Positions 10,866 through 64,000 of a DNA stretch of 64,000 nt are shown here, piece by piece. The notes under the pieces were generated by a model. It was not told where the DNA came from. It saw nothing but the letters and a program-made list of their open reading frames with translations, and made no database searches. The stretch covers positions 1 to 64,000 of the forward strand of contig NZ_JAAAMU010000013.1 in NCBI RefSeq assembly GCF_009909195.1, read 5' to 3'. Both the position numbers and the translations under genes were made by a program. How positions within the stretch are numbered: position 1 is the stretch's first letter; each line of letters starts with the position of its first letter. The stretch comes from Paenibacillus sacheonensis (lineage in GTDB: Bacteria > Bacillota > Bacilli > Paenibacillales > Paenibacillaceae).

Positions 10866-11120
10866 TGCAAAGCGGCTGAATGCTGCATTCCCGTCTCTCA
10901 GCACGAAGAAGCTGGCGAAAGCTGCATTCCCCGACCTCCGTCGGTGAACGCAAACCAATCGCCTTAAGCAAACCAATAAGCTCAGCGGATGCTTACGAAG
11001 CGGCTGAATGCTGCATTTCCGTCTCGCGCCGGCAACGCAAACCAATCAGCTCAGCGGATGCTTACGAAGCGGCTGAATGCTGCATTTCCGTCTCGCGCCG
11101 GCAACGCAAACCAATCAGCT
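10866..11120 (+). repeat. extragenic repeat array with a perfect 69-bp tandem duplication
   Basis: Directly after the copCD stop. Positions 10981-11049 and 11050-11118 are identical 69-base units. Each contains GAATGCTGCATTTCC and, about 20 bases on, GCAAACCAATCAGCTC. Two more diverged copies precede them (10883-10965; one holds the small stem CCGAC-ctcc-GTCGG). The same core recurs at 23275-23406. The last unit ends where the ribosome site of the histidine kinase begins (CTCAGGAGGG). Confidence 0.9.
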
Positions 11121-11134
11121 CAGGAGGGCAGAGC

Positions 11135-13999: not shown

Positions 14000-15037
14000 A
14001 TGGTAATGAAAGAGCGTTTGGAAGCACTGCGCGCCGAGGCGCTGCAGGAGCTGCAGGGAGTCGCCGGTCCGCAGCAGCTGAACGACCTGCGGGTCAAATA
14101 TTTGGGCAAAAAAGGCGCGCTGACGGAAATTCTCCGCGGCATGGGAAGCTTGAGCGCCGAGGAGCGTCCGGTCATCGGACAGGTCGGCAACGAGGTGCGC
14201 GCCGCCATCGAAGAAGTCATCGAGACGAAACAGGCCGCGTTCCAGCAGGCCGAGACGGAGAACCGCCTCCGCGCGGAAACGATCGATGTCACGCTGCCTG
14301 GCAAGAAGCTCGCTGCCGGCGCGGTTCACCCGCTGAACAAGGTCGCGCAGGAAATCGAGGATGCGTTCATCGGCATGGGTTATTCCATCGCGGAAGGACC
14401 GGAGGTCGAGACGGACTTCTTCAACTTCGAGGCGCTGAACCTGCCGAAGAACCACCCGGCGCGCGATATGCAGGATTCCTTCTACGTAACGGACGAGATC
14501 CTCATGCGAACGCATACTTCGCCGGTACAGGTCCGGACGATGAAGGCGATGAACGGCAAGCCGGTGAAGGTCATTTGCCCGGGTAAAGTGTACCGCCGCG
14601 ACGATGACGACGCGACGCATTCGTTCCAGTTCAACCAAATCGAAGGCCTCGTCATCGGACCGAACATCCGAATGAGCGACCTCAAAGGCACGCTGCTGCA
14701 GTTCGTGCAGCTGATGTACGGCAAGCAGGCGCAAATCCGTCTGCGGCCGAGCTTCTTCCCGTTCACGGAGCCGAGCGCGGAAGTGGACGTGACCTGCGTG
14801 AAATGCGGCGGCCACGGCTGCCGGATGTGCAAGCATACCGGCTGGATCGAAATCCTCGGCTGCGGCATGGTGCACCCTCGCGTGCTCGAGATGGGCGGCT
14901 ACGATCCGAACGAAGTCAGCGGTTTCGCGTTCGGCATGGGCGTCGAGCGGATCGCGATCTTGAAATACGGCATTGACGACATTCGTCATTTCTATACGAA
15001 CGACCTGCGCTTCCTGAGCCAGTTTGTCCGAATGTGA
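14000..15037 (+). CDS. pheS: phenylalanyl-tRNA synthetase alpha subunit
   Basis: The 345-residue catalytic subunit of the alpha2beta2 enzyme charging tRNA-Phe. An N-terminal coiled arm (~1-85) precedes the class II core with motif 2 ([19 protein letters not shown]) and motif 3 ([17 protein letters not shown]). A CxxC-like cluster ([16 protein letters not shown]) is typical of Bacillota PheS. AGAAGGGG at 13988-13995 precedes two possible ATGs, 14000 and 14006. pheT follows 16 bases later. Confidence 0.97.
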
Positions 15038-15053
15038 GAGGGAGGCATATACG

Positions 15054-17498
15054 ATGAACGTATCTTATAAATGGTTGAGTCAATATATCGATTTGGACGG
15101 CTACACGGGCAAGCAGCTGGCCGAGCTGATGACGAGCGGCGGCATCGAGATCGACGTGGTCGAGTCCCGCAACAAAGGCGTGACCGGCGTCGTCGTCGGC
15201 CGCGTGCTGACGAAGGAAAAGCACCCCGACGCGGATAAGCTGAACGTGTGCACGGTAGACGTCGGCGGTCCGGAAGCGCTGCAGATCGTCTGCGGCGCGA
15301 AGAACGTAGACGCGGGCCAACTCGTTCCCGTTGCGACGATCGGCGCGGTGCTGCCCGGCGACTTCGCGATCAAGAAGGCGAAGCTGCGCGGCGTGGAGTC
15401 CCAAGGCATGATCTGCTCCGCGAAGGAATTGGGCTTGAACGACAAGCTGCTGCCGAAAGAACTGCAGGAAGGCATTCTCGTGCTGCCGGATAACACCGCG
15501 GTCGGCGCATCCATTCTGGATGTGCTCGGCATCGACGATGAAGTGCTGGAGCTCGATTTGACGCCGAACCGTTCGGACTGTCTCAGCATGCTGGGCGTCG
15601 CTTACGAAGTGGGCGCATTGACCGGCCGCGCGGTGAAGCTGCCTGACACGCGGATCAGCGATTCTTCGGAGCAGGCTTCCGCCCATGCGTCGGTCCGGAT
15701 CGAAGCGAAGGAACAATGCGCGCACTATGCCGCGCGGTACATCAAGGGCGTTAACGTCGGCCCATCGCCGCTCTGGCTGCAGAACCGTCTCATGGCTGCG
15801 GGCATCCGTCCGATCAGCAATGTCGTGGATATCACGAACTTCGTCATGCTGGAATACGGTCAGCCGCTGCACGCGTTCGACGCCGATCGCATTCCGGAAG
15901 GCCGCATCGTCGTACGCTTGGCGAACGAGGGCGAGACGATGAGGACGCTGGACGGGCAGGAACGAAAGCTGGAGCCGCATATGCTGGTCATCACGAACGG
16001 CGAGTCGCCGCTGGCGCTTGCTGGGGTCATGGGCGGGGCAGATTCCGAAGTAACGGCTTCGACGGTGAACATTTTGCTCGAATCCGCGCGTTTCGAAGGC
16101 GGCACGGTTCGCAAGACGTCCCGTCAAGTCGGCCTGCGTTCGGAATCCAGCGTGCGCTTCGAGAAAGGCGTCGACCCTGCGAGAATCATTCCTGCGCTGG
16201 ACCGCGCGGCAGCGCTGATGGCGGAGTATGCCGGCGGTCACGTGCTCGACGGCATCGTGGAAGAAATCTCGGAACCGGCCGAGCAAACGGTCGTTACGGT
16301 CTCGATCGCCAAGATTAACCGCTACCTTGGAACGGAGCTTTCGAAGCTGGAGCTGGAGACGATTTTCAGCCGCCTGCAATTCCCGTTTCAATTATCCGGC
16401 GATGGGGTATTTACCGTAAATGTGCCGACAAGACGCGGCGATATTACCCGCGACGTCGACTTGATCGAAGAAGCGGCCCGCTTGCACGGCTATGACAACA
16501 TCCCGACGACGGCTATCGAAGGTGCCGCGACACCGGGCGCGTTGACCAAGCCGCAGGCGATTCGCCGCGAGCTGCGCAAGCGTCTCACGGATGCCGGGCT
16601 GCATGAAGTGATCAGCTATTCGTTCACGCATCCGGACCGCACGAAGCTGTTCCCTGCACTGAACGGCGCCGGCATACTTCCGGTTCGCCTGGCGCTTCCG
16701 ATGAGCGAGGATCGCAGCGTGCTTCGCACGAGCCTGCTTCCGCAGCTCCTCGAGACGGCAGCGTACAACCGCAATCGCAAGAACGACGATGCCGCGATTT
16801 TCGAGATCGGCAGCGTCTTCCATACGGACGAAGAAACGTTGACGCGTCTCCCGCATGAGAAGCACCGCTTGGCTATACTGCTGTCCGGCAGCCGGAGCCG
16901 CGCGGAATGGAATCGCAAAGCGGAAGCGTACGATTTCTACGACCTGAAGGGAATCGTCGAAACGCTGGCCGACGTGCTCGGCGTGAACGGATCCATCGGC
17001 TATGAAGCCGCGCAGCCGGAGCATATGCATCCCGGCCGTACGGCAGCTATCGTACTGCAAAGCGAACGCGGTCCGGTAACGATCGGTTATTTGGGCCAAC
17101 TGCATCCGGGCGTTCAAATCGACCACGATCTCGCCGATACGTACGTGCTCGAAGTCGAGCTGGCGCCCCTGTACGAAGCGGCCGATTCCGCGATCGTCTA
17201 CAAGGCGCTGCCGCGTTACCCGGCCATGGAACGGGATATCGCCGTCGTGCTGAATCGCGGGGTGGAAGCAGGCAAGCTGATCGAGGCTGCCGCCAAGACC
17301 GCAGGCGAACTTCTGGAGTCGATTCGCATCTTCGACATCTTCACCGGCGAGAAGCTTGGCGCGGATAAGAAGAGCGTTGCGTTGTCGCTCGTATACCGGC
17401 ATGCGGAGCGTACGCTGACGGACGAAGAAGTGACGGAAGTTCACGGCAAGGTCGTCGATAAATTAGAACAATCTTTTGAAGCAGAATTGCGTAAATAG
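15054..17498 (+). CDS. pheT: phenylalanyl-tRNA synthetase beta subunit
   Basis: An 814-residue subunit of PheRS. Domains in order: EMAP-type tRNA-binding domain (~40-150, VVVGRVL, HPDADKLNVC), B3/4 editing domain (~210-390), B5 domain (~400-480) and C-terminal anticodon-binding FDX-ACB domain (~720-813, PRYPAMERDIAVVL). MNVSYKWLSQYIDL is the usual N terminus. GAGGGAGG at 15038-15045 sets the start at 15054. It is co-transcribed with pheS under T-box control and ended by a terminator just downstream. Confidence 0.97.
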   Translation: MNVSYKWLSQYIDLDGYTGKQLAELMTSGGIEIDVVESRNKGVTGVVVGRVLTKEKHPDADKLNVCTVDVGGPEALQIVCGAKNVDAGQLVPVATIGAVLPGDFAIKKAKLRGVESQGMICSAKELGLNDKLLPKELQEGILVLPDNTAVGASILDVLGIDDEVLELDLTPNRSDCLSMLGVAYEVGALTGRAVKLPDTRISDSSEQASAHASVRIEAKEQCAHYAARYIKGVNVGPSPLWLQNRLMAAGIRPISNVVDITNFVMLEYGQPLHAFDADRIPEGRIVVRLANEGETMRTLDGQERKLEPHMLVITNGESPLALAGVMGGADSEVTASTVNILLESARFEGGTVRKTSRQVGLRSESSVRFEKGVDPARIIPALDRAAALMAEYAGGHVLDGIVEEISEPAEQTVVTVSIAKINRYLGTELSKLELETIFSRLQFPFQLSGDGVFTVNVPTRRGDITRDVDLIEEAARLHGYDNIPTTAIEGAATPGALTKPQAIRRELRKRLTDAGLHEVISYSFTHPDRTKLFPALNGAGILPVRLALPMSEDRSVLRTSLLPQLLETAAYNRNRKNDDAAIFEIGSVFHTDEETLTRLPHEKHRLAILLSGSRSRAEWNRKAEAYDFYDLKGIVETLADVLGVNGSIGYEAAQPEHMHPGRTAAIVLQSERGPVTIGYLGQLHPGVQIDHDLADTYVLEVELAPLYEAADSAIVYKALPRYPAMERDIAVVLNRGVEAGKLIEAAAKTAGELLESIRIFDIFTGEKLGADKKSVALSLVYRHAERTLTDEEVTEVHGKVVDKLEQSFEAELRK

Positions 17499-17513: not shown

Positions 17514-17566
17514 AGCCGCATCGAATTAGTTCCTTGCGAACGAATCTCGATGCGGCTTTGTTTTAT
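17514..17566 (+). terminator. intrinsic terminator after pheT
   Basis: AGCCGCATCGA pairs with TCGATGCGGCT and is followed by TTGTTTTATTT. The loop is about 22 bases and includes a small inner pairing (TTCCTTGCGAACGAA). Confidence 0.85.
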
Positions 17567-17764
17567 TTGGGCCAGGCTGGATTGGTTAAAGGCCGGAGCT
17601 GCCGCAATGTAAGCGTTCGCGACAACGAGTATTCGGTTCAGGTTTGCGCCAGGGAAATACGCAGCAAGAGTTAACGGAAACTGACGACAACAGAAGATCT
17701 GAACGTGATGAATGTCGAAAAGGGATTATGAAATTTTCACCCGGAACAATAGGAGGATACCCTC

Positions 17765-20700
17765 ATGAACGCTGCCGATCGGACACGTGTGACGGTTGAC
17801 ATATACGGTAACCAATTCAAATTGACAGGTCATAATAACCCGGAATATATTAAGCGGATTGCCGCTTTCGTGGACGAGAATCTACATAAACTCGCCAAGG
17901 GCTATCCGCGCTTGGATCTGCCCAAGCTCGCGATGCTGGCATCGGTCCAAATGGCGGAGGACGTGTTCCGTCTTCGAGTGGAGAACGAGCATATGCTCGA
18001 GACGGAAGAGCGCCGCAAAGCCGCCGTGGCCGAAATGGAGCAGGCGAAGCTGATCCTGGATACGCTGCAGGGCGAGTTGGAGGCGGAGCGGCTCAGCGCG
18101 GAGACGGCGTTGGAAGCCGAACGCGAGCATGCCCGCGCGGAGCTGGAACGTTTGGGCGCCAGCCTGCAGGCTCGGCTGGAAGACGCGGTGCGGGAAGGCG
18201 AGGCTAAGCTTGCCGAAGCGGAAGCTGCGGCGAATGGCGAGCTGGCTCGCGTGCGCGCTGAGCTGGAGGCACAGCGCGAGCGCGACCTGGCTGCTGCGCG
18301 GGACGAGCTGGAGCTTGCGATGCTGGAGCATGAAGAAGCTCGCGAGGCTGCGCGGGCCGAGCAAGAGCGGTTGTTGGCGGAACAAGTCGCGGAGCGCGAG
18401 GCAGCGGAAGCGGCTTTCGTGCGAATGCGGGAAGAGCTGGAATGGGAACGCGAGGCGGAGCGCGAGGCCGCGCTGGAAGAGATGGAGCGTGTTGGCGCTC
18501 TGCTGCAGGGACGCATGGAGCAAGCGCTTCGAGATGCAGAAACGGCAGCGGCCGAAGAGCGCGAAGCCGCCGCGGCGGAGCTGGCGAAGGTCCGGGAAGC
18601 ACTCGAGGACGAATTGCTGCGCGTGCGCGGCGAATTGACCGAAGAGCAGGAGCGGCATGCAGCCTCCGTCCGATCGTGGCAGGATGTAGTGGATCAGGCG
18701 CAGCAGGAAGCGGATTCCGCGTTGTTGGCGGCGCGCGAGGCTGCCGCGGCCGAAACCGCCCGCGTGCGCGAAGAATTGGAAGGCGAGCTAGCCCAGCTGC
18801 GAGAGTCGCTGGAGCGCGAGCTTGAACAGCAGCGCCAGGCATTGGAACAGGAGCGGGAGAACCGTCTGCTGGAGACGCTGGAAGCCGAGGAGGCGTTGGC
18901 GGCGGCAAGACAAGCTGCCGAGACGCTTGCGGCATCCGAACGCGAAGCGGCCGCGGCTGAACTGGCGCGCGAGCGCGAAGCAGGCGAGGCTATGCTGGCG
19001 CTTGCGAAGGAAGCGGCAGCGGCAGAGCTTGAACGGGAACGCGAGTCGGCATCGGGCGAGCTTGCGCACGTGCGCGAAGCGCTGGAAGCCCAGCTGGCGC
19101 AGCAGCGCCTGGAGCTGGAGCAGGAGTGGGAGCGTCAGGATTTGGCGGCGCAGGCAGCTCAGGAGGCGCTTCAGTCCGTAGAGGCGAAGGCGGCAGCCGA
19201 GCTGGAAGCGATCGCGGCGGAACGCGCGCGGGATCGCGAAGCGGCCGCGTCGGAGCTGGCCCGTGTAATGGAAGCCGCGGCGGCCGAGCAGGCGCAGCTT
19301 CGGGAATCGCTGGAGGCCGAGCTTGCGCGGCAGCGTTCGGCGCTGGAGCAGGAACGGGACAGCCGCGAGCTGTCGGAGCTGGAGACGCTGGAGGCGCATG
19401 AACAGGCGCTGCGCGAAGCGGAAGCACGCGCGGCGGCGGAGCGCCAGACGCTCGAGCAGTCGCTGCAGGCACTGCAGGCGCAGGCCGCGGCAGCGCGCGA
19501 GGCTCATGAAGCCGCGCTGCGGGATGCGGAAGCGAAGGCAGTCGATGCGCTTGCCGCGGCCGAAGCGGCGCTTGCAGGCGCGCAGGCAGCGGCCGCAGCC
19601 GAGCTGACGGCCGTGCGTGACTTGGCGGCTTCGGAGCTGGCGGGCCTGCGTGCCGAGATGGATTCGCGGCTGGCAGAGGAGCGTGAGCTGCGCGAGCTGG
19701 CCGAGCTCGAGGCGCTGGAAGCGCACGAGCAGGCGGTGCGCGAATTAGAAGCGCGGGCGGCAGCGGAACGCGAGCTGTTGGAACGCGAATTGCTGTCGGC
19801 GCAGTCGCAGGCAGCGGCAGAGCGCGAAGCGGCCGAGGCCGAGCTGGTCCGCATGCGAGAAACGTCCGAAGCGGAGCTGACGGCGGCCAAAGAAGCGGCT
19901 GCATCGCAATTCGCCCGTTTGCGCGAATCGCTGGAGTCGCAGCTGGCGGAAGAACGCGAACTGCGCGAGCTGTCGGAGCTGGAGGCGCTGGAAGCGCACG
20001 AGCTTGCCTTGCGCGAAGCGCATGAGCAAGCGATGCGGGCAGCGGAAGCGCAGACGGCAGAGCGCGAAGCGTCCGAGCAGGCGCTGCGCGAGGCGCATGA
20101 GCACGCGCTTCGTGCAGCGGAAGCGCAGGCGGCCGAGGAGCGAGAAGCGCTCGAGGAGGCGCTGCGCGAAGCGCATGAGCAGGCGATGCGGGCAGCGGAA
20201 GCCCAGGCGGCAGAGCGCGAGGCGTCCGAGCAGGCCTTGCGCGAGGCGCATGAGCAAGCACTGCGTGCAGCGGAAGCGCAGGCGGCTGAGGAGCGAGAAG
20301 CGCTCGAGCAGGCGCTGCGCGAAGCGCATGAGCAGGCGATCCGGGCACAGGAAGCGCAAGGGGCAGAGCGCGAGGCGTCCGAGCAGGCGCTGCGCGAGGC
20401 GCATGAGCAGGCGATGCGGGCAGCGGAAGCGCAGGCGGCCGAGGAGCGAGAAGCGCTCGAGCAGGCGATTCGGGGACAGGAAGCACAAGCGGCAGAGCGT
20501 GAGGCGTCCGAGCAGGCGCTGCGCGAGGCGCATGAGCAAGCGCTGCAAGCGACAGCAGCGAAGTCGGCCGAGGAGCGCGATGCTTATGAGCAGATGCTGC
20601 TTGCTTCGGCTTCGCGGGCGGCGGAAGAGCGCAGGGCGCACGAGAGAGCGCTCCGCGAAGCGGAAGCTGTCGCCGCAGAGGAACTGGAGCGCAGGAGAAC

Positions 20701-22165
20701 GGAAGCGGCCGCGGAATTGGCCGAGCTTCGCGAAGCCATGGAGGCCCAGCTGGCGGAGCATCGCCGAGCCATGGAAGCCCAGCTTGCGCAGCAGCGCGAA
20801 GCCGCGCATGCCGAGCTGGAGCTAGAACGCGAAGCGGCTATGGTGGAGCTGATCGAGGCGCAGGACAAGTACGAGGAAGAGCTGAGGCGCGAACGTGCGC
20901 TGCAGGAAGCGACCGCGTCGACGGCCGCCGAGCAGTTGGCGGAGGCGAGGGCGGAGCTGCTGGCGCAGCTTGAGCAGGCAAGAGCGGAAGCTGAACGCTC
21001 ATTGCAGGAAGCAAGCGAGCTGGCGGTACGCATGCAGAGCGAAGCCGAGCTGGCCGCGGCGGAAGCAGTCGCCGCAGAAGCCGAGCTGCGTGATCAGCTG
21101 GCTCGGCTGCGTGCGGCGCTGGCCGAGGAGCAGGAGGCTGCCGCAGCGAAGCTGGTGCAGGAACGCGAAGCTGCGCAGTCGCTGCTGGAGCAGTCGCTGC
21201 AGGCAAGCGTCGACGAAGCTGCCGAACGTGCAGCGGACTACGAGCGGCAGTTGGAAGAGGTCCATGCCGCAGCGGCAGCACGCGAGCAGTCGCTGCAAGA
21301 CGAGCTTCGCAGCCTGAGCGAAGCGCTGCAACAAGAGCGGGGGCAGCTCGCGGAGCAGCTGGACGCAACCCGAACAGAGCTGGAGAGCCTGCGCAAGCAG
21401 CTGCTTGAAGCGCATGAAAACGGAGAGCTGCTTCTGACGGAAGCGGCCGAGCAAGAAACGAAGCAGCGCTTGACGATCGAAAGACTGGAGCGCGAGCTGC
21501 AGGAGCGGGAATTCGCCGCCGAACAGCTGCATCAGCACGCGGAGCAGCTGCAACGAAACGAGCAGCGCCGTGCGGAAGCATTCCAGCAGCAGGAAGAGCG
21601 GATTGCCGAGCTGAACAGTTTGCTGCAGGAAGCGCAGATCAGCGCGGAAGATGAGCTGCAGGTACGGCTGGAGTTAAGCCGCCAACGGGACAACGTGCGT
21701 CAGGAACTGGAGCTGTTGAATAATCGGAACGCCGAGCTGACGGAAAGGCTGCAGGCGGCGGAAGATCGCGCAGCCGATCTCATGCGCGAAGCGCGGCAGC
21801 AGATGGCGGAGGTGGAACGCGTCTCTGACGAAGCCGCCGCAGAGCTGGAGCGCCAGGCAAGAGAAGCGGAGGCGGAGATCGAGCTCGCAAGGCAGCAGGC
21901 GGCCGCGCATGCCGAGTCGGAAGCTGGATTACTGGAGCAGCTGCGTCTGATCGAAGACGAAGCCCGCGCGTCGAAGCAGCATTCGCAGCAAATCGACGAA
22001 CGATTCTCGGAGCTGGAGTCGGCGCTGAACGAGGCCGTGCAGGACAAGCAGGAGCTTCGAACCGTTCATGAGAAACTGCAGGCCGAGCATGGCAAGCTGG
22101 TGACCGAATATCGGAAGCTGCAAACCGAGTTCAACGATTGGATCGAGCTGATCGAGAAAAGCTAG
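17765..22165 (+). CDS. giant ZapA-domain protein with ~1,370-residue coiled coil
   Basis: A single uninterrupted 1466-codon frame. Residues ~6-95 match the cell-division protein ZapA (RVTVDIYGNQFKLTGHNN, IKRIAAFVDENLHKLAKGYP, LPKLAMLASVQMAEDVFRLR), which binds and bundles FtsZ. Ordinary ZapA ends near residue 85-110. Here it continues into an Ala/Glu/Arg/Gln/Leu-rich sequence almost free of Gly and Pro, i.e. predicted continuous alpha-helical coiled coil, to the C terminus. Fully extended, this would be about 200 nm. Residues ~769-940 are near-perfect 51-residue repeats. AGGAGG at 17752-17757 supports the start. The position after pheST and before mutS2 matches the zapA locus of Bacillota, so this is the resident zapA, not an extra copy. 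There is no signal or membrane anchor, so it is cytoplasmic. Confidence 0.9.
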   Translation: MNAADRTRVTVDIYGNQFKLTGHNNPEYIKRIAAFVDENLHKLAKGYPRLDLPKLAMLASVQMAEDVFRLRVENEHMLETEERRKAAVAEMEQAKLILDTLQGELEAERLSAETALEAEREHARAELERLGASLQARLEDAVREGEAKLAEAEAAANGELARVRAELEAQRERDLAAARDELELAMLEHEEAREAARAEQERLLAEQVAEREAAEAAFVRMREELEWEREAEREAALEEMERVGALLQGRMEQALRDAETAAAEEREAAAAELAKVREALEDELLRVRGELTEEQERHAASVRSWQDVVDQAQQEADSALLAAREAAAAETARVREELEGELAQLRESLERELEQQRQALEQERENRLLETLEAEEALAAARQAAETLAASEREAAAAELAREREAGEAMLALAKEAAAAELERERESASGELAHVREALEAQLAQQRLELEQEWERQDLAAQAAQEALQSVEAKAAAELEAIAAERARDREAAASELARVMEAAAAEQAQLRESLEAELARQRSALEQERDSRELSELETLEAHEQALREAEARAAAERQTLEQSLQALQAQAAAAREAHEAALRDAEAKAVDALAAAEAALAGAQAAAAAELTAVRDLAASELAGLRAEMDSRLAEERELRELAELEALEAHEQAVRELEARAAAERELLERELLSAQSQAAAEREAAEAELVRMRETSEAELTAAKEAAASQFARLRESLESQLAEERELRELSELEALEAHELALREAHEQAMRAAEAQTAEREASEQALREAHEHALRAAEAQAAEEREALEEALREAHEQAMRAAEAQAAEREASEQALREAHEQALRAAEAQAAEEREALEQALREAHEQAIRAQEAQGAEREASEQALREAHEQAMRAAEAQAAEEREALEQAIRGQEAQAAEREASEQALREAHEQALQATAAKSAEERDAYEQMLLASASRAAEERRAHERALREAEAVAAEELERRRTEAAAELAELREAMEAQLAEHRRAMEAQLAQQREAAHAELELEREAAMVELIEAQDKYEEELRRERALQEATASTAAEQLAEARAELLAQLEQARAEAERSLQEASELAVRMQSEAELAAAEAVAAEAELRDQLARLRAALAEEQEAAAAKLVQEREAAQSLLEQSLQASVDEAAERAADYERQLEEVHAAAAAREQSLQDELRSLSEALQQERGQLAEQLDATRTELESLRKQLLEAHENGELLLTEAAEQETKQRLTIERLERELQEREFAAEQLHQHAEQLQRNEQRRAEAFQQQEERIAELNSLLQEAQISAEDELQVRLELSRQRDNVRQELELLNNRNAELTERLQAAEDRAADLMREARQQMAEVERVSDEAAAELERQAREAEAEIELARQQAAAHAESEAGLLEQLRLIEDEARASKQHSQQIDERFSELESALNEAVQDKQELRTVHEKLQAEHGKLVTEYRKLQTEFNDWIELIEKS
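20069..20580 (+). repeat. 153-bp tandem repeats inside the ZapA coiled-coil gene
   Basis: GCGTCCGAGCAGG begins at 20069, 20222, 20375 and (as the last, truncated step) 20504. The period is 153 bases (51 codons), then 129, i.e. loss of eight codons. Each unit encodes two similar ~25-residue blocks (EASEQALREAHEQAL.. and EALEQALREAHEQAM..). Near-identity at DNA level points to recent expansion. Confidence 0.92.
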
Positions 22166-23274: not shown

Positions 23275-23406
23275 GACGATTGCTGCATTCCCTATCGGTT
23301 CTGCAAACCAATCGCTTTTGAACGAATGCTGCAGGTCCTCCCGGACCTGCAAACCAATCGCTTTTTGAACGAATGCTGCAGGTCCTCTCGGACCTGCAAA
23401 CCAATC
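23275..23406. repeat. extragenic repeat array, three copies, about 47-bp period
   Basis: Three tandem copies of an element with GAATGCTGCA and GCAAACCAATCGCTT ends (starting near 23278, 23322 and 23371). Two copies fold as TGCAGGTCC-TCTC-GGACCTGCA. The core is shared with the array at 10866-11120. It lies between the CuA lipoprotein stop codon and its terminator. Confidence 0.9.
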
Positions 23407-23410
23407 GTTC

Positions 23411-30491: not shown

Positions 30492-31565
30492 TTAATCCTT
30501 CCAAACCTCCAATTCTTCTTCTACGATGGCCCTGCGCTCTTCGATGTAGCTCCGGAACAATTCCGGCTCTTCCTCGAAGGAGCGGAAGGGCCATTTTCGC
30601 GTGAAATCGTCCCGGATGGCAGGGGTGATCTCCTCGTACATGCTTTGAATGACCGGTTCGATGGTGCCGATCGTGAATTTGCCGTCGAGCAGCTTTGCCA
30701 GAATTTTACGATACGCCTGCCTGCAGGATTTATAGGATAACACCTTGCGGGTGAGCGCGTTATAGCCTCTCACGTCTACCAAATCGCTGCCGCACAGCCG
30801 TCCATAGCAGTTGCGTCCCCATGTCCCCTCGTAATCCCACGGAATAATCCGATATTTCCCCGTGGTCGTATGCTCGTAGAGCGCATAGTTCTGATCGAAG
30901 CCGTCATAGTTCCCGGTAAGCACGGCACCGGCCAGCCATTTCAGATAAACGCTGACATCGAGTCGCTTGGCCATATAAGTGCGCAGTGTCCGCCTCGGCA
31001 GCCGATTGATGCTGCTTACGAAGCGCACGAGCCGTTTCTCCGTATTCACGTTCCCCTTCATCACGCGGTAGCCTTCCATGAGCGACTCTTTCCGCGCTTC
31101 CGTATCGGGATCGATCAAGCTGAAATTCGCCTTGTCGTTAACCGCATAGATCAGCGCCTTGGAACCGATGCTTCGCCTGCGGAAGAAGGCCGTATCCACC
31201 GATTCGATTTCCAAATAAACCCCGTGCGGGTAGCCGTTCCACTCCAGCCACATATGCTTCGTTCGCGGCGCGGGAACACCCATCATATTGAAGAAACGGA
31301 AGGAAAGCGCATTGCGGATCATCGACGGGTCGTCGAATTCCGCATTCCAATGAAGGATACCGTTATCCCCGAAATGGATTTCGTAGGATTTCTTCGGATA
31401 CGTCCGCGTGTGGCCTCCGCGAATCCTCAGCTTCGCATCCATCGTCTTGCCGTCCATCTCCAGCTTCACGGGGGCGAATTCATTGCTCCAGACATCGGCC
31501 AGTAGGCGCTGCAGATCGGCCTCGTCGATCGTTATCTTGCGAGTAGCCAGCCCTTCCCCGGACAT
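30492..31565 (-). CDS. cotH: CotH-family spore coat protein kinase
   Basis: A 357-residue CotH domain protein. CotH kinases are atypical secretory-kinase-like enzymes that phosphorylate Ser in coat proteins CotB and CotG. Visible motifs are LRIRGGHTRTYPKKSYEI, with the ATP-contacting Lys, and GNYDGFDQNYALYEH followed by IIPWDYEGTWG, which holds metal-binding Asp residues. AAGGAGA sits eight bases before the ATG. The upstream neighbour on the same strand is a Ser/Thr-rich Gly-X-Y repeat protein and the next gene is CotB with a Ser-rich tail. The cotH/cotG/cotB grouping of B. subtilis is therefore preserved in idea. Confidence 0.9.
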   Translation of the reverse strand: MSGEGLATRKITIDEADLQRLLADVWSNEFAPVKLEMDGKTMDAKLRIRGGHTRTYPKKSYEIHFGDNGILHWNAEFDDPSMIRNALSFRFFNMMGVPAPRTKHMWLEWNGYPHGVYLEIESVDTAFFRRRSIGSKALIYAVNDKANFSLIDPDTEARKESLMEGYRVMKGNVNTEKRLVRFVSSINRLPRRTLRTYMAKRLDVSVYLKWLAGAVLTGNYDGFDQNYALYEHTTTGKYRIIPWDYEGTWGRNCYGRLCGSDLVDVRGYNALTRKVLSYKSCRQAYRKILAKLLDGKFTIGTIEPVIQSMYEEITPAIRDDFTRKWPFRSFEEEPELFRSYIEERRAIVEEELEVWKD

Positions 31566-31660: not shown

Positions 31661-32440
31661 TTATTTGCCGCCCCAGCCGCTGTTGTGGCTGCTGTTGCTG
31701 CGAGCGCCGCGGGAACCTTGCGTACCGCGGGAGCCTTGCGTGCCGCGGGAGCCTTGCGTGCCGCGGGAACCCTGCGTGCCGCGGGAACCTTGCGTGCCGC
31801 GGGAACCTTGCGAGCCTTGAGTACCTTGAATACCTTGCGAGCCTTGAGTACCTTGAGTACCTTGCATGCCTTGCGAGCCGTGCACGCCGCGAGAACCGCA
31901 GGAGCCTTGCGTACCTTTTGTGCCTTGCGAGCCTTGAGTACCGCGGGAACCTTGCGTATGCTCGCCGGGAGCTCCTTGCGTGCCTTTGGTACCATGCGAG
32001 CCATGGGAACCGCGGGAGCCGCGGGAACCTTGTGTACCTTTCGTACGGTCGCCGCAGGAACCTTGGGTGCCTTTGGTGCCATGCGAGCCATGGGAACCGA
32101 GGGGACCTTTCGTGCGGTCGCCGCAGGAACCTTGCGTGCCTTTGGAGCCATGCGAGCCATGGGAACCGAGGGGACCTTTCGTGCGGTCGCCGCAGGAACC
32201 TTGCGTGCCTTTGGTGCCATGCGAACCATGGGAACCGCGGGAGCCCTGGGAGCCTTGCGTACCTTGCGTGCGGTCGCCGCAGGAACCTTTCGTACCATGC
32301 GAGCCATGGGAACCGCGGGAGCCTTGCGTGCCTTTGGTGCCCTGCGAACCATGGGAACCGCGGGAGCCGTGCGTGCCTTTCGTACGGTCGCCGCAGGAAC
32401 TTTTATGTCCGCCGAGGTTTTTCTTTTGATTGTTTGCCAT
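31661..32440 (-). CDS. Gly-X-Y repeat, Ser/Thr/His-rich spore coat protein (CotG-like position)
   Basis: A 259-residue repeat protein. After a short start ([15 protein letters not shown]) nearly every third residue is Gly, with Ser/Thr at X and His/Arg/Lys/Gln at Y ([12 protein letters not shown]). The collagen-like register is interrupted by GSCGDRTKG blocks, repeated about every 23 residues and each carrying one Cys. The C-terminal third is a six-residue GSRGTQ repeat. Proline is almost absent, so a collagen triple helix is uncertain. The location beside cotH and cotB and the dense Ser/Thr-plus-basic pattern suggest a CotH substrate, analogous to CotG. AAAGGAG lies about 12 bases before the ATG. 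Long open frames on the other strand are artefacts of the repeats. Confidence 0.8.
31710..32400 (-). repeat. nested 18-bp and 69-bp coding repeats in the Gly-X-Y gene
   Basis: The C-terminal coding part (about 31713-31815) is an 18-base unit repeated five to six times. The central part repeats with a 69-base period (23 codons) marked by the GSCGDRTKG block. The units are nearly identical in DNA, so copy number is likely variable between strains. Confidence 0.85.
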
Positions 32441-63896: not shown

Positions 63897-63902
63897 AGGC
63901 TC

Positions 63903-64000
63903 GGTATTGCGATGGATGCTCTCGTGGTGCTCCGGTATTGCGATGGATGCTCCCGTGGTGCTCCGGTATTGCGATGGATGCGCTCGTGGTGCTCCGGTAT
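63903..64000 (+). repeat. 31-bp tandem repeat array cut by the window end
   Basis: GGTATTGCGATGGATGC recurs at 63903, 63934, 63965 and (partial) 63996, an exact 31-base period with only one or two varying positions (CTCTCG, CTCCCG, CGCTCG). It starts directly after the ecsB stop. The units are contiguous without spacers. Confidence 0.93.

Follow-up and report, generated by a model that had tools for sequence, protein, structure and literature searches.

A ZapA with a long, length-variable coiled-coil arm between its head and a conserved C-terminal tip in Paenibacillus sacheonensis and its order

ZapA is usually treated as a small FtsZ crosslinker of ~10 kDa. In the 64,000-nucleotide stretch of Paenibacillus sacheonensis DNA analysed here (the window), the gene at the zapA locus (17765..22165, forward strand) is one frame of 1466 codons with an ATG start and no internal stop in the ORF list and its translation, so that the protein, at 1466 residues, lies well outside the size expected of a ZapA (~85-110 residues). 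Is this protein still ZapA, where in the molecule did the additional residues arise, and what might a ZapA of such length do? A sequence-only reading had described a single continuous frame that begins as ZapA and goes on as an almost glycine- and proline-free helix, at the native locus. Table 1 collects the features of that locus.

Table 1. Features at and around the zapA gene, in window coordinates.
Feature	Position	Strand	Basis or remark
pheT, upstream neighbour	15024..17498	+	ORF list; pheT on the same strand in relatives' loci
Terminator-like hairpin and T-rich run, 3' of pheT	17515..17563	+	read by eye
Shine-Dalgarno sequence AGGAGG	17751..17756	+	8 nt 5' of the ATG, read directly in the sequence
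zapA head domain, residues 1-92	17765..18040	+	PF05164, match to 2MMV, AF2; FtsZ-binding by homology
Coiled-coil arm, ~1339 residues, length varying among species	18041..22057	+	composition, hydrophobic period, omega
Tandem array within the arm, 75/153-bp units (25/51 residues)	19991..20467	+	Tandem Repeats Finder
C-terminal tip (...EYRKLQTEFNDWIELIE), interpreted as ZapA's native C-end, moved outward by the arm	22058..22156	+	tip profile, short-ZapA matrix

Searched apart from the rest of the protein, the head matches Pfam ZapA (PF05164) over residues 9-91 (E 1.3e-14, 54.7 bits against a cut-off of 23.8), bearing out the ZapA start of the continuous frame. The whole 1466-residue protein gives no Pfam family at E<=0.001, the score appearing only with the head given apart, and the 1366 residues outside the ZapA match give none at E<=0.01. 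The closest solved sequence to the head is Geobacillus stearothermophilus ZapA (2MMV, E 2.1e-16). An AF2 model of residues 1-160 (pLDDT 94.5) contains two strands, a helix and then an unbroken helix from 52 to 159, that is, the ZapA fold of β-hairpin, helix and long C-terminal helix. In a 138-residue relative (G311) a single helix is predicted for residues 53-137, running through the C-terminal tip (pLDDT 91.6), and a fold comparison with the PDB, which rests on the model of this short relative, returns ZapA chains for all ten best matches, of which only the top one (E 2.4e-5) falls below an E of 0.001; three of the ten are 1T3U, labelled in the PDB as 'unknown conserved bacterial protein', which we take to be Pseudomonas aeruginosa ZapA. 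The 80-bit cut-off of the NCBI equivalog model NF010724 is reached neither by the head (64.2 bits) nor by the whole protein (59.3 bits), so we do not claim the equivalog label and place the protein in ZapA at the level of the domain.

The surroundings agree with this placement. In all 40 loci retrieved from relatives together with their flanks, pheT lies upstream of zapA in the same orientation, and mutS2 is found on the strand of zapA in 24 of the 40, many retrieved stretches ending before mutS2, which upholds the earlier view that the resident gene itself was extended. Among the other neighbours in these 40 loci are cupredoxin-like (31), holin-like (29) and SDR-like (9) genes, with stretches that often end early; in the window zapA and mutS2 are separated by three minus-strand genes, which by their resemblance we take to be SDR-like, cupredoxin-like and holin-like. 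The start of pheT is probably slightly 3' of that of the listed ORF, and the terminator-like hairpin between pheT and zapA suggests that zapA has its own promoter. A genome-wide search of P. sacheonensis (7.44 Mb, 46 contigs, 99.93% complete) finds one ZapA match, which is this gene; the second, normal zapA that the sequence-only reading had advised looking for was sought by this search and is absent from its matches.

Elsewhere in the window, a 259-codon frame (31661-32440, minus strand) carries collagen-like Gly-X-Y repeats with GTQGSR units and DNA repeats of 18 and 69 bp. It lies beside a gene (30492-31565, minus strand) that we take, by its resemblance, to be CotH-like, and the pair is perhaps related to the spore coat. 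Near-perfect tandem repeats occur at 10968-11123 (69 bp units), 23301-23407 (47 bp) and 63902-64000 (31 bp); the first falls within the listed N-terminus of a sensor-kinase-like frame, whose listed start may lie too far 5' and so take in a repeat that is intergenic.

The great length of the frame is not peculiar to this genome. Within the genus of the window, ZapA lies in an open frame of 805-1528 codons in 22 of 22 genomes, P. sacheonensis included, seven of them single-contig assemblies, and each has one genome-wide ZapA match; an assembly artefact, which the earlier reading had named as a possible explanation, is thereby excluded. In the family, 293 of 295 genomes have a ZapA match, in frames of 275-1616 codons among the matches listed, and in a sample of the order (60 genomes, 11 families, 28 genera) the frames range from 129 to 1746 codons. 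In two large families of the order a ZapA of more than 500 codons is usual, namely f1 (533-1470 codons) and f6 (511-1746, save one of 139). Shorter frames occur in other families: one family has 839 codons (f2), another 164 and 699 (f8), another 306 (f5), f7 has 238-425 with two genes broken by contig ends, and f3, f4, f9, f10 and f11 have 129-222. Outside the order, the above-cut-off ZapA matches of a class sample of 151 genomes are all in frames no longer than 258 codons, a sub-threshold partial match in a 1456-codon frame (G336) being set aside. Named relatives with the gene belong to Paenibacillus, Cohnella and Thermobacillus, the nearest among those listed being P. lycopersici, P. glycinis and P. 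artemisiicola. Loci with 36-69% GC have the same layout, making GC content or codon bias an unlikely source of the open frame, and a viral origin was likewise set aside, since nine pattern matches in viral contigs include none coding for a relative, in a search that covers close relatives only.

Assemblies show gaps or breaks inside the arm in several cases (N gaps in G012, G326, G329 and G330, a frame break in G020 and an early stop in L264), suggesting that annotation pipelines may often split or truncate zapA. In a phylum sample, the ZapA domain was found outside the class in frames of 660-687 codons in five genomes (G706, G489, G605, G690 and G713; families f65 and f77), and in frames of 248-354 codons in family f58, in both cases among the matches listed; these other extended ZapAs are possibly fusions.

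The end of the protein locates the extension. Complete genes end in a 34-residue tip with the consensus L..EYxKLQxEYNEWIELIE, or L..EYxKLQxEYNEWIELxE over 40 sequences from eight families; across these 40, L-10, L-3, E0 and W4 are invariant and E, Y, K, N and E nearly so. A profile built from 21 rows from the same genomes, the P. sacheonensis tip among them, has a single match in the P. sacheonensis genome (E 2.6e-15) and exactly one match each in 59 of the 60 order genomes. In 54 of these 59 the tip shares the open frame of ZapA, and in the other five (G320, G324, G326, G329 and G330) a contig end or gap interrupts the gene. The one order genome of 60 without a profile match is G296 (family f3), whose 129-codon gene has an apparently degenerate tip at its end. 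The profile has no match in 139 sampled Bacilli genomes outside the order. The pattern E[YFH][ND][ED]W is present in 75 of 82 extracted genes; it itself fixes some of the conserved columns, for which the 21-row profile search serves as a check. The seven genes without it comprise a contig end (G022), four N gaps (G012, G326, G329 and G330), G020, in which the frame breaks and the tip is found further on in another frame, and G296, a real lack. Among 80 named Paenibacillus, Cohnella and Thermobacillus loci, which overlap the other genome samples and are not independent of them, the tip ends the gene in 74 (length 303-1495, median 842.5); the remaining six comprise three contig ends, two N gaps and one stop after 183 codons.

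This tip resembles the C-ends that short Bacilli ZapA ordinarily have, such as DEYFRLKQEYDELLKLIE. When a matrix of 19 such C-ends was scanned past residue 100 of the 75 tip-bearing proteins, its best score fell on the tip, in exact register, in 70, as it did with the aromatic scores set to zero (70/75), while 200 column-shuffled matrices did so in 1.0 of the 75 on average and in 40 at most. Against the PDB, the tip profile matches ZapA 2MMV residues 65-81 at rank 7 of 16 marginal matches (E 0.13), the remainder being unrelated and several of them coiled coils. The agreement in register indicates that the arm was inserted ahead of ZapA's own C-end, inside the C-terminal helix, and we conclude that the tip is the native ZapA C-end and that the arm grew within this helix. 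The alternative is convergence of two heptad stretches. The extension proposed in the sequence-only reading is thus real as a long arm, but it does not follow ZapA: it is inserted between the head and the conserved tip. In several short relatives (G303, G301, G307 and G298) a break containing proline or glycine precedes the tip, which makes it look like a separable module. Taken by domain and locus, the gene is therefore a ZapA with a length-variable internal arm and, through nearly all of the sampled order, a conserved tip.

The arm itself is as helical in composition as had been described. Past residue 95 there is no proline in 1371 residues, and glycine makes up 1.3% of the arm; alanine, glutamate, glutamine, arginine and leucine together account for 82% in P. 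sacheonensis and roughly 56-82% among the species listed. Proline-free stretches reach 1642 residues across the genes extracted from relatives, at a local GC of 36-69%. The tandem array in the arm (Table 1) comprises 3.1 copies of its 153-bp unit with 90% matches, with smaller arrays close by; of the 10-mers of the arm 7% recur, and the arm is mostly not simple repeat. The hydrophobic period of the P. sacheonensis arm is 3.63, with a power of 25.1 against a shuffle mean of 5.6. Among 14 proteins the periodicity exceeds that of shuffles in all, weakly in G264: P. sacheonensis and five others have a hendecad-like period of 3.63-3.66, five have a heptad period of 3.49-3.52, and the remaining three lie at 3.54, 3.55 and 3.68. 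Together with the AF2 head and its unbroken helix, this answers to the coiled-coil and structure checks that had been proposed; in places, a single α-helix rather than a coiled coil may hold. The arm is acidic (net charge -171), which argues against DNA binding by the arm itself. The suggestion that it is ZapB-like finds no counterpart in profile searches, ZapB (PF06005) being absent at E<=1 from the C-terminal 41 and 166 residues of the P. sacheonensis protein and at E<=0.01 from its arm as a whole; one sub-threshold match (E 0.11) occurs in a short relative, L118.

The length of the arm changes readily. It differs several-fold among close relatives, a poor fit to a strict ruler, and short and long versions are mixed among one another on a tree of pheT from 41 taxa (of its 38 inner branches, 20 have good support and 12 are open), so that length has probably changed several times. 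Within a genus, different species share few arm 8-mers (0-123 of 644-1355); unaligned starts or ends account for a few low identities of the head and the tip in this comparison. Spearman correlations of frame length with genome size, which ignore kinship, take part of the family rows and drop broken genes, reach 0.79 in the Cohnella-like genus g12 (n=31), 0.63 in g17 (n=12), 0.49 over 79 family rows and 0.59 over 36 rows from other families; the values are 0.19 in the window's genus (n=20), -0.09 in f6 (n=16) and -0.46 in g4 (n=8). Length rises with genome size in g12 and does not in the window's genus or in f6; genome size was rejected as the driver of arm length.

Within one related genus the picture is steadier. 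Across 13 genomes in which the length stays at 906-941 residues, the median omega of four arm segments is 0.08-0.11, so the arm is under purifying selection there (omega ~0.1); the head and the tip, at a median of 0.04 each, are the most constrained parts. In genus g6 (L102, L166-L177), leaving aside the near-identical G076, synonymous divergence between close relatives is 0.02-0.06 in the head and higher, mostly 0.1-0.6, in the arm, a difference that recombination between arms, or constraint on the 5' end at the level of DNA or RNA, might produce.

These observations bear on the idea that the arm is a passive spacer or brush, which would ward structures off the ring or tune its fluidity by crowding, its length drifting by repeat slippage, with the tip merely capping or seeding the coiled coil. 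Such drift would sit well with frames of 129-1746 codons, with the repeats, with the scarcity of shared 8-mers and with the interleaving on the pheT tree, and heptads in the tip could let it seed a coiled coil. The tip is, however, more conserved across the 40 sequences from eight families than a generic coiled-coil end, and both the low arm omega and the steady length in the 13 genomes tell against a passive arm; we consider this reading unlikely. We regard as less probable still that the protein has left cell division, its head no longer binding FtsZ and the whole serving as a cytoskeletal scaffold with some other function, such as one in sporulation or at the poles. The head scores 54.2 bits in the genome search, below most short Bacilli ZapA (largely 59-86 bits in the class sample), and the missed equivalog cut-off points the same way, but the ZapA fold is kept, head and tip are the parts under strongest constraint, and the gene is the sole ZapA match in its own genome and in all 22 of the genus. 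FtsZ of P. sacheonensis, moreover, begins MLEF and so keeps a phenylalanine at position 4; PMC12216130 describes this residue as conserved in Gram-positive FtsZ, and ZapA as clasping the FtsZ N-tail.

How the chains run along the arm was approached through charge pairs in 64 arms, whose heptad registers were assigned without regard to charge sign. Opposite charges at i+1, i+3 and i+4 are enriched in every register, and at i+5 only from g to e, with a mean z of +1.64 (-0.97 to +0.18 in the other six registers). The g-to-e value is positive in all 64 arms, against -0.01 in the shuffled control, and amounts to +0.062 per pair, with up to +0.007 in other registers. This is the pattern of parallel in-register dimers. 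The arms of SMC proteins are antiparallel coiled coils, and 44 of them, with assumed arm limits, give +0.038 per pair for g to e and up to +0.025 in other registers; eight of the 30 SMC loci had no usable frame, and the homologues are close, so these arms are not independent. Because antiparallel SMC arms yield about half of the ZapA signal, we count the support for a parallel dimer as moderate.

The arrangement that this pattern weighs against is an antiparallel dumbbell, in which four helices would pack along the whole arm, each tip would lie at the opposite head, and arm length would set the gap between FtsZ filaments. It has structural precedent: in Klebsiella, a bundle of four C-terminal helices holds two ZapA dimers together as a D2-symmetric tetramer, and the FtsZ N-tail binds at a site that the free C-tail of ZapA overlaps (PMC12216130). 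The match of the tip to the native ZapA C-end would also suit it. Over the full overlap, though, antiparallel charge complementarity is absent from the 64 arms (mean z -0.04, s.e. 0.12), and the g-to-e signature, itself moderate, is that of the parallel arrangement. We favour tip-to-tip joining or docking on a partner over full antiparallel packing, which we judge improbable.

On balance, we think that the sole ZapA of P. sacheonensis has probably been rebuilt as a long-reach crosslinker or tether of the Z-ring, a reading drawn from sequence. A dimer of heads would grip FtsZ as in other bacteria, and the two chains would leave it side by side as a parallel coiled coil with a reach of ~200 nm (1370 residues at the textbook helix rise of 0.15 nm); a pair of tips at the far end would make the functional contact. 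As the C-terminal helices of Klebsiella ZapA join two dimers into a tetramer, the likeliest contact is between tips, joining two arms into a giant dumbbell that would link distant FtsZ filaments, although taken singly this is possible rather than probable. Next, and slightly less likely, the tip might dock on a different protein, for instance one of the membrane, the nucleoid or the septum. More generally, and tentatively, ZapA of the Paenibacillales may be a long-reach organiser of the ring, with a parallel arm of up to ~200 nm or more, its own C-end serving as the tip and tips joining each other or a receptor, so that the ring would be cross-braced beyond the reach of any known Zap protein, in bacteria with no close EzrA.

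The last clause follows from searches for EzrA (PF06160). There is no match in the P. sacheonensis genome; of the 60 genomes sampled from the order, 23 give a match of any strength and 7 one above the cut-off, the best at 71.9 bits, while in the class sample 95 of 151 genomes are above the cut-off, one of them from this order, with scores of up to 664 bits, though merely 68-93 bits in some families. Two of the four best matches in the order, L143 and L146, have a signal-like start and a Gly/Ser-rich tail, and we take them to be TPM-type. The other two, L144 and L145 (genus g30, f6), are frames of 554-568 codons in which the matching helical domain (62-69 bits) comes after a membrane segment; they have an EzrA-like layout and could be diverged EzrA, and we accordingly limit the claim to the lack of a close EzrA in the order. 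The genomes of L144 and L145 belong to species with the longest ZapA arms. In Bacillus subtilis, loss of zapA is silent alone and severe without ezrA, and EzrA consists of an N-terminal membrane anchor and spectrin-like repeats (PMC6126333). It is conceivable that long ZapA takes over ring-organising work done elsewhere by EzrA, a weakly supported clause that is not central to the proposal. Other families with short ZapA in the class sample likewise have no good EzrA match, which leaves EzrA replacement unsupported as a sufficient cause of the arm and the link between arm and missing EzrA suggestive only.

Comparing zapA length across relatives, as had been recommended, thus revealed that many members of a whole order carry a ZapA of 500-1700 residues with both ends conserved. 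No description of a long ZapA, or of ZapA in Paenibacillus, was found in the open-access literature searched by title and beginning of abstract, a scope outside which most subscription papers fall. A natural series of arm lengths with constant ends offers a rare test of whether the reach of a crosslink governs how the Z-ring is built. The tip could be used directly as bait for a division partner, should one still be missing, and the long ZapA bears on how the ring is organised in bacteria without a close EzrA.

Among known systems, EzrA (many Bacilli) is likewise a long helical protein acting on FtsZ, as the long ZapA would be, but the arm is a regular coiled coil without a membrane anchor. 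The enterobacterial coiled-coil partner of ZapA, ZapB, is comparable by analogy only, if the arm reaches a distant partner; ZapB shares no sequence match with it and is a separate small protein, whereas here there is one polypeptide. The closest solved structures are those of ZapA itself (2MMV from G. stearothermophilus, 1W2E from P. aeruginosa, 4P1M from Escherichia coli and 9ISJ/9ISK from Klebsiella pneumoniae). The long protein shares with ordinary ZapA its head domain, its single copy, the sequence of its C-end and the helix leaving the head, and differs in the up to ~1600 coiled-coil residues between head and C-end and in a tip with an N-E-W motif of its own.
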